DNA of 64,000 bases from Terricaulis silvestris (lineage in GTDB: Bacteria > Pseudomonadota > Alphaproteobacteria > Caulobacterales > Aquidulcibacteraceae), in assembly GCF_009792355.1 (NCBI RefSeq), contig NZ_CP047045.1, positions 3,622,501-3,686,500 of the forward strand. The letters are read 5' to 3'. The notes below the pieces were generated by a model that saw only the letters and a list, made by a program, of their open reading frames with translations, searched no databases and was not told where the DNA came from. How positions within the stretch are numbered: the stretch's first letter is position 1; every line of letters starts with the position of its first letter. Made by a program: the position numbers and the translations under genes. Positions 31,754 to 53,639 of this stretch are shown one piece after another.

Positions 31754-32170
31754 GGGCGCGAGTGTGCGCGTGGTGTGAAGCCGGTCGGATTGATTTCTCG
31801 CCCTTCGTGCTCACCCGATAGGGGGAGCTGTCATCGCGATCGATGACTGAGGGGGCAGCGCCTTTGTTTGCAAGCATTTGCGCCCTCCCCTCCGTCGCGT
31901 GCACCGCACGCGACACCTCCCCTAACGGAGGGAGGACGAGAGCTAAGTGTTGGATAGAGGGCGCCTCTATCCCCGCATTCCGTTTGTTGCTGGCAGTGTG
32001 AGTTCAGCTGATCGCCGCAACGCGTAGCATGCTACTGCGGGGGTTCCCTCGCGGTAGTTTTGCAACAGCGTCGGGTCAAACGACCGCTTCTCGCGTTGCT
32101 TGGTAGGATATTCACCAGGATCGCTCTTCATGTTTCTCGGGAGTTCACTTTTTTAACACGGGAAATCACG
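31754..32170. other. 417-base stretch without a gene, holding a repeat and hairpins
   Basis: This region separates the basic-protein gene from the porin gene. It holds one copy of the palindromic repeat (31809-31936), a perfect nine-base hairpin (GGATAGAGG, loop GCG, CCTCTATCC at 31952-31972), and the upstream region of the porin. I could not identify a confident promoter. No open frame with a ribosome site was seen. Confidence 0.7.
31809..31936. repeat. Composite palindromic repeat, intergenic copy
   Basis: The element starts with a GCTCACCC/GGGGGAGC hairpin, then GCTGTCA with TGACTGAGGGGG, and ends with a nested hairpin (GTCGCGTGC and GCACGCGAC inside CCTCCCCTCCGT and ACGGAGGGAGG). The same order of blocks occurs at 53014-53118 inside the chromate transporter gene. 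Similar dispersed intergenic elements are common in alphaproteobacteria. Confidence 0.8.
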
Positions 32171-52337: not shown

Positions 52338-53639
52338 TTATAGAGCCAGAGCGTGCGCCGCCAAGCCCGCGATGGCGCAGGCAGCCAAAACCAACAGCAG
52401 ATTGGCCTTGAACCGGATCAACGCGATGCCTGCCGCTAGGGCTAGGCCGACCATCCAGAGCCGCGCGGTGGCTGGGTCCGGCAGTTCGACCGGACCGATG
52501 TGGATTTGCGCGGTGAAGAGCGCGTGCGCGGCGAAGAAGAGCGCGAGCTTGGCGATGACGCCGAGAACGGCCGCCGTGATTGCGGCGAGTGCGCCGGCGG
52601 CGTGGCGGTTGTGCTCGAGACGCTCGGCGATGGGCGCGCCGGCGAAGATCCAGACGAACGATGGCGCAAACGTGCACCAGAGTGCGATGGCTGCGGCCGT
52701 GAGCGCGAGTGGGAGGCCGCCTGTGGTCCAGCCGGCGAGGAAGCCGACGAACTCGTTGACGAGAATAAGCGGGCCCGGCGTGGTTTCGGCGAGGCCGAGG
52801 CCGTCGATCATTTGCGCCGGCGTAAGCCAGCCGCGCGTGGCCGCTTCGGTAGCGAGATACGCGAGCAACGCGTAGGCGCCGCCGAAGGTGACGCAGGCGA
52901 GGATCGAGAAGAGCAGCGCGACTTGGAAGAGGACGTGGTCCGTGCCGAGGGTGACGGCGATGAGTGCTGGTGGTGCGAGCCAGAGGATGAGCCAGAGGAT
53001 GGCGTGGGCGTATGCTCCCCCGCGCACGGGGGAGCTGTCAGGACGCGTAGCGGCCTGACTGAGGGGGGCGTCCCCCTCCCCTCGCTTCGCTCGGACCTCC
53101 CCCGCAAGCGGGTGAGGAATAAGCGCGCCGATTGCGCCGGCTGCGATGATCACCAACGGAAACGGTGCGCCGAGGATGAGAGCTACGAACGCGGCGATGG
53201 CGATCCAGATTGCCGTGTTCGTTTTCAGTGCGCGTTTGCCGACTTTCACCAGCGCTTCGGCGACGAGCGCGACGACGGCGCACTTTACGCCGTCGAACGC
53301 TGCGGCGACGAGCGGGAGTTCGCCGTAGCTCACATAGAGCCACGACAGCGCTAGCACGATCAACGCACCGGGGATGACGAAGAGCCAGCCGGCGATCAGT
53401 GCGCCTTGCCAGCCACGCAGGCGCCAGCCGATGTATGTTGCGAGCTGCTGCGCTTCAGGACCCGGCAACAGCATGCAAAACGCGAGCATGCGCTGGAAGC
53501 GCGCGTCGTCGATCCAGTTGCGCTCGTCGACGAAGACACGGTGCATCAGCGCGATTTGTCCGGCGGGACCGCCGAAGCCGAGGCAGCCGACTTTAAGGGA
53601 TTCGCGGAAGAGCGTTGAAAGCAACGGCGCAGCGTTCAT
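52338..53639 (-). CDS. chrA: Chromate transporter ChrA with an in-frame palindromic repeat
   Basis: A 433-residue protein of the CHR family, which exports chromate using the proton motive force. Two homologous halves (about 1-175 and 212-433) each hold the family's membrane helices; the first begins [14 protein letters not shown], the second [19 protein letters not shown]. Residues about 175-209 ([16 protein letters not shown] and [10 protein letters not shown]) do not look like chromate transporter sequence. They are the translation of a repeat (53014-53118). The start is ATG 53639. Confidence 0.88.
53014..53118. repeat. Composite palindromic repeat inside chrA
   Basis: It shares block order with the copy at 31809-31936 (GGGGGAGCTGTCA, TGACTGAGGGGG, CCCTCCCCT, and CACCTCCCC-like, ending GAGGA). 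About 105 bases, or 35 codons, so the reading frame of chrA is kept. Confidence 0.82.

Follow-up and report, generated by a model that had tools for sequence, protein, structure and literature searches.

A palindromic repeat in frame in the interdomain linker of a chromate transporter gene, and the probable filling of permissive linkers by such repeats across a genus

We observed that chrA, a chromate efflux transporter gene of Terricaulis silvestris, contains a dispersed palindromic repeat (family A) at full length, in frame between its two homologous halves. The gene lies in the window, the stretch of 64,000 nucleotides that was analysed (contig NZ_CP047045.1, positions 3,622,501 to 3,686,500). 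The original prediction had described this insertion in chrA by itself. This observation is confirmed, but it is not isolated, since ChrA orthologues and other proteins carry elements in the same way, and the finding is part of a genus-wide pattern among coding palindromes. We consider it very likely that a family A element was inserted in the chrA linker, and that permissive linkers have been filled repeatedly across the genus. The features in the window are listed in Table 1.

Table 1. Positions in the window of chrA, its two halves, and the family A copies and hairpins
Feature	Positions	Strand	Basis
chrA, two-domain chromate efflux transporter, 433 aa	52338..53639 (including stop)	-	ORF list; Pfam PF02417; NCBIfam TIGR00937
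First Chromate_transp half, residues 9-171	53129..53615	-	Pfam, half alone, E 8.1e-48
Second Chromate_transp half, residues 239-426	52362..52925	-	Pfam, half alone, E 3.5e-29
Family A palindromic element, full length, in-frame residues 174-209	53013..53118	-	29-copy alignment; R1 E 5.3e-20
Terminal hairpin 1, CTCCCCCG...CGGGGGAG	53015..53034	.	97.3% of cells paired, 29 copies; fold
Inner hairpin, GTCAGG...CCTGAC	53037..53059	.	88.7% of cells paired, 3 pairs changed on both sides; fold
Terminal hairpin 3, CCTCCCCCGC..GCGGGTGAGG	53096..53117	.	96.1% of cells paired, 29 copies
31.8 kb copy, intergenic-looking, family A	31808..31936	+	R1 E 3.1e-7, outside model; fold z -6.6

ChrA scored 219.3 bits against TIGR00937 (cut-off 171.7), which classes it as a two-domain chromate transporter. 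Pfam matched each half separately with the element between them, in agreement with the predicted in-frame position. The element is 106 bases long (TGCTCC...GAGGA) and, relative to the consensus of alignment A1, lies in antisense orientation. It had been predicted to start at 53014; the element is indeed there, but its measured start is 53013, one base away. Both peptides quoted in the prediction were found in the ORF translation. Folded as single-strand DNA, the element had a z of -5.0 against dinucleotide shuffles. Rfam gave two matches on 52800-53300, both far under the gathering scores of their families, and these were set aside as chance.

Forty loci around copies were fetched, and 29 full-length copies were aligned to build the covariance model R1; two of the 31 full-length BLAST hits were dropped from the alignment (L153, a reverse duplicate, and L156, which is divergent). 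The ChrA copy of the window and the PdhB copies of G005, G006 and G009 are among those used to build R1 and match it by construction. The BLASTN matches are independent of the model, and those of the ChrA copy to other copies reach an E of 9.8e-26. The 29 copies are palindromic stem-loops of 106-131 bp with a common plan: the hairpin CTCCCCCGnnnnCGGGGGAG at one end is followed by the inner stem GTCAG...CTGAC and then by a variable middle part, and the hairpin CCTCCCCCGCnnGCGGGGGAGG closes the other end. Standard pairs were found in 94.0% of the cells, as against 91.4% after shuffling (0 of 500 shuffles as high). The cells changed on both sides numbered 27 (7.7 in shuffles, 0 of 500), and six pairs had double-sided changes (2.5 in shuffles, 1 of 500). 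The number of further pair types in these copies was not significant (84 of 500 shuffles), and the inner-stem pair 29-45 was mostly unpaired. The stem structure of family A is kept through compensating changes.

When the ChrA element was used as the BLASTN query, 15 places were found in its own genome at E<=1e-3, the query included, while R1, with scores computed for 150 of the 4446 first-look candidates, found at least 20 distinct places at this threshold. The 31.8 kb copy, which had been proposed as a relative of the ChrA element, belongs to the same family, being recognised by a model from which it was absent; it has no common reading frame across the element. BLASTN matches were present in 16 of 21 genomes of the first set of relatives and R1 matches in 28 of 30 same-genus genomes. 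At E<=1e-6, R1 matched 30 of 60 genomes of the order, in 16 of 23 genera. A second family, B, is also dispersed, the PdhB copy of the own genome matching 28 of 30 genomes by BLASTN. Its model, R2, was built from 16 aligned copies; the own PdhB and own helicase copies are among them and match by construction, and what these two match by BLASTN does not depend on the model.

The family A copies contained 2.31 open frames each, as against 3.53 in shuffles. This deficit indicates that the elements are not built for translation, and the idea that they are adapted as open frames was rejected on this count. At least two reading frames are used, since the frame of ChrA and PdhB differs from that of MutL. 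Searching for further coding copies with a codon-score test trained on the window ORFs, we evaluated 21 own places, of which 20 had E<=1e-3 and one 0.0085, and 22 loci of G009. Four of the own places and six of the G009 loci were in frame within one gene; most of the copies examined thus lie outside coding frames. L238 was dropped although the script had labelled it coding, as its right-flank score was negative and it had 9 codons on one side. L122, L123 and L143 were rejected as fusions, as they lie immediately before ppdK, gltB and serA or where these genes begin; these copies (the first two from the own genome, the third from G006) could act on the mRNA leaders of those genes. A closest kinship of the ChrA copy with other coding copies was not upheld. 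By ungapped identity its nearest relative is L140 (0.969), whose sole spanning open frame is short, reaching 10 and 5 codons past the element, and the G005 PdhB copy comes second (0.953).

We also evaluated the ChrA orthologues, using 17 complete linkers, one from the window and 16 from rows that were fetched for 15 further genomes; the count excludes the distant rows at <=66% identity, L112-L115 and L120. Six of these linkers hold an element by R1 or R2, the window one of family A and the other five (G007, G008, G021, G025, G032) of family B. In the other 11, neither model gave a hit within the linker at E<=0.01, so that the relatives do include the empty sites anticipated in the prediction. 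In three further rows (L116, L118, L121) the contig runs out within the repeat, and the B hits are partial. On a ChrA tree with the linker removed, element presence needs six changes, and carriers group with non-carriers; L010 groups with L011, L013 and L016 at 99/99, and L012 and L049 with L015 and L017 at 96/91. Two of ten repeat-free linkers tested, L018 and L021, resemble elements at p<0.05, and some repeat-free linkers may be decayed copies. The metagenome contigs L049, L064, L071 and L075 break inside chrA at the repeat, and repeat-bearing chrA is probably split in many draft genomes.

The ChrA span from PFP to AP is 65 residues long, as compared to 48-55 in the ten repeat-free rows measured. 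The prediction of about 35 added codons is therefore correct for what the element supplies, but not for the net gain, which is 10-17 codons. About 20 codons of host linker are thus absent from ChrA, and the host linker appears to have been trimmed or replaced. The open frame suggests that the element is translated and tolerated. In an AlphaFold2 model of ChrA (24 aligned sequences; mean pLDDT 87.5), residues 190-200 were the sole segment with a pLDDT below 50, and the block means over residues 181-210 were 53, 45 and 66. The element-encoded stretch is the least certain part of the model and is probably disordered. Neither a PDB sequence search (window 52341-53639) nor a fold search gave a match at E<=0.001, so the model stands without a template check against a solved relative.

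When we examined other proteins, we observed elements in frame in unrelated conserved genes (ChrA, PdhB, MutL, PriA, LeuRS, E2 and helicase). The linker of PdhB between the lipoyl and E1beta domains is occupied in 15 of 26 rows, by A in eight and by B in seven. The 11 rows lacking an element have KQEAK-type linkers, and G021 and G032 retain the host KQEAK beside a shortened A, which suggests insertion followed by trimming. The G026 PdhB linker (L263 2495-2649) has a divergent A-like element in which both hairpin arms have changed in step (CTCCTCC...GGAGGAG), as though the stem were being maintained.

The ligase-associated helicase of the own genome has two elements, a B copy around residues 214-255 and an A copy at 551-595. 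At the first site, the 27 rows with both anchors gave 17 hits (3 A and 14 B), 13 of them at E<=2e-5 and four weak (7e-4 to 2.6e-3); the loop has 5-8 residues in eight rows and 23-24 unrecognised residues in two. Insertion at this site is clean. Of the 28 rows at the second site, 2 had a hit. By BLASTN, MutL carries family A in 5 of 30 genomes; three of these genes (G005, G009, G021) keep the frame, that of G033 is interrupted, and in G024 the copy lies at a contig end. In G009, copies were found in PriA, LeuRS, E2 acyltransferase, an ImuB-like protein, MutL and PdhB.

All eight inserts that are flanked on each side by a Pfam domain sit outside the domains (product of chances 1e-6), Pfam edges being an imperfect measure and two of the eight being MutL of different genomes. 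This count excludes the inserts that lack flanking domains, in QueG, the ImuB-like protein and two unknown proteins. In three ORFs an interruption falls at the element or within it: PdhB of G032 (L265 ~1442-1554), MutL of G033 (L324) and the helicase of G032 (L340 2374-2493). These are natural mutations or assembly errors, and the orthologues are intact in other genomes. In the own genome, two paralogues with no Pfam match, L203 and L207, have an element at the same position (1501-1641 and 1501-1605), ahead of a similar ...SAWPxAERxEALLRV... stretch, and QueG (L132 2528-2575) has a 16-residue half-element ahead of its DUF1730 domain.

To estimate recurrence, the site states were placed on a quick maximum-likelihood tree of four proteins with linkers masked (30 genomes, 2082 columns), in which G012 and G024 are under half filled and branching inside some groups is weakly supported. 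At least six state changes were required for ChrA, nine for PdhB, nine and three for helicase sites 1 and 2, and six for MutL, a total of 33 across the five sites. Among these labels, those for ChrA in G003, G012 and G024 come from incomplete B matches where the contig stops (E 7e-4 to 0.009). Two more, for MutL in G031 and helicase site 2 in G007, were assigned by eye, and MutL of G024 is a contig fragment.

The share of occupied sites rises with the number of dispersed copies minus coding ones (rho 0.69, p 4.5e-5) in the 28 genomes for which three or more sites were scored, kinship and assembly completeness being uncorrected. On the same uncorrected basis, A-occupancy follows A copies (rho 0.70, p 3e-5) and B-occupancy follows B copies (rho 0.60, p 7e-4) in these 28 genomes. 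The cross-correlations were not significant (A sites against B copies 0.01; B sites against A copies 0.25, p 0.20). The A counts are covariance-model matches on both strands and the B counts BLASTN matches with one query, and the visible coding copies are survivors only. The link between occupancy and copy number is family-specific.

Together, these observations suggest that a non-autonomous mobile palindrome of family A (about 106-131 bp, three stem-loops) entered the interdomain linker of chrA with the frame kept, and that surplus host linker would then have been removed by selection. The product would be a transporter whose halves are joined by an element-encoded, probably disordered linker. 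Permissive sites outside Pfam domains, such as those in ChrA, PdhB, the helicase (two sites), MutL, PriA, LeuRS and the E2 acyltransferase, would be filled by the genome's abundant palindrome family, the copies afterwards being trimmed, swapped or lost. We lean towards a broader view as well: interdomain linkers would evolve by repeated palindrome replacement, the supply of repeats rather than the history of the protein would set the linker sequence, and A and B would turn over by insertion, trimming and refilling.

A different history, which we regard as a minority possibility, is a single ancient insertion per gene that was inherited and later lost or converted by other copies, so that repeated invasion is only apparent. 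In its favour, the position is identical in all carriers of each gene, A and B have GC-rich hairpin tips in common at which they could recombine, the L018 and L021 ChrA linkers are weakly similar to elements, and support for the branching inside some tree groups is weak. Against it, the 5-8 residue helicase loop of eight genomes looks never invaded, 8 of 10 repeat-free ChrA linkers tested had no similarity at p<0.05, each site needs 3-9 changes, and occupancy follows the genome's own copy number, family by family. Selection for flexible proline- and glycine-rich linkers could in principle have led, by convergence and without any mobile element, to coding DNA that resembles hairpins. The encoded peptides are indeed rich in P, G, S and A and lie outside domains; but it is the DNA, beyond the peptide, that matches intergenic copies, which largely refutes this reading, and the same DNA is used in different frames in ChrA/PdhB and MutL. 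We judge convergence very improbable. Least credible of all is that the segment is native ChrA sequence with an incidental match to the repeat, for although its frame is open and its flanks are conserved, 11 of the 17 complete linkers lack it, and it recurs at many other places in the genome.

The dispersal of family A and its presence and absence in relatives suggest that it is mobile. The two ends of the element (TGCTCCCCCG, CGGGGGAGGA) form an imperfect inverted repeat, and each also folds into its own hairpin. A target-site duplication, one of the marks of a MITE, was not found in the 29 copies: among 81 offsets, the highest count for 2 bp was 4 of 29, and for 8-9 bp it was 0. The transposase search covered Y1_Tnp, the REP-associated tyrosine transposase (RAYT). 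Family A might be a large REP-type element moved by this enzyme, as Y1_Tnp genes occur in 16 of 30 genus genomes, six of which are rich in A copies (G003, G005, G006, G007, G009, G012). However, the own genome has no Y1_Tnp and at least 20 A places, G021 has none and 63 A matches, and neither family had a match at E<=1e-3 beside the eight Y1_Tnp loci examined, among the 34 matches listed. Y1_Tnp thus finds no support as the mobiliser, and we consider this route unlikely. Insertion of a mobile family A palindrome into permissive linkers, followed by trimming or refilling, is the reading that we retain.

Within one genus, five sites across up to 30 genomes can be followed together with empty sites, two families and a link to copy number. 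Mobile DNA as a supplier of new protein sequence can be tested here by comparison and simple enzyme assays. Selfish DNA appears to be raw material for protein linkers, and the linker residues of these proteins should not be taken as conserved function. A search of the open-licence literature, in the portions available, gave no report of such insertions in this lineage or of linkers refilled by several families.

Several small repeats resemble family A in part, as far as the available text of the cited papers describes them. The Caulobacter CIR (CcrM-associated intergenic repeats) are also alphaproteobacterial, about 110 bp long and have 5' and 3' stem-loops (PMC2229807); family A, in contrast, occurs in genes, and the CcrM site GANTC was present in 0 of 29 copies, on which count identity with CIR was rejected. 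Correia/NEMIS, ERIC, RU and QMITE1 are likewise small, non-autonomous and sometimes fused to genes in frame (PMC2229807; PMC10969869; PMC2759123), but they differ in hosts and sequences and in target-site duplication, absent from the 29 copies here. The GTAG- and CGTC-tagged REP repeats of the REP/RAYT system are palindromic and of high copy number (PMC3733652). They are 20-40 bp long, whereas family A has three stem-loops over 106-131 bp, the ChrA copy ends in TGCT/AGGA and the own genome lacks Y1_Tnp.

The closest parallel is that drawn in the original prediction, with the Rickettsia palindromic elements (RPE), and the likeness holds for a probably mobile and translated palindrome between domains. 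RPE are in-frame palindromes in Rickettsia genes, and other small repeats are sometimes fused to genes in frame (PMC2229807; PMC10969869). In the text available, coding palindromes are known mainly from Rickettsia, mostly as single insertions taken as tolerated selfish DNA, and their occurrence in other prokaryotes is called conceivable (PMC10969869). Like family A, RPE and their Wolbachia counterparts are dispersed stem-loop palindromes of 100-150 bp (PMC2229807; PMC10969869), and RPE too lie in frame within unrelated conserved genes, a likeness by description rather than by sequence alignment. Unlike RPE, the present elements are GC-rich, occur in genomes titled Hyphomonadaceae or Caulobacteraceae and are not enriched for open frames. 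The twist over RPE is that the same sites are refilled by two families, the linkers taking up the palindrome family that is abundant in the genome.
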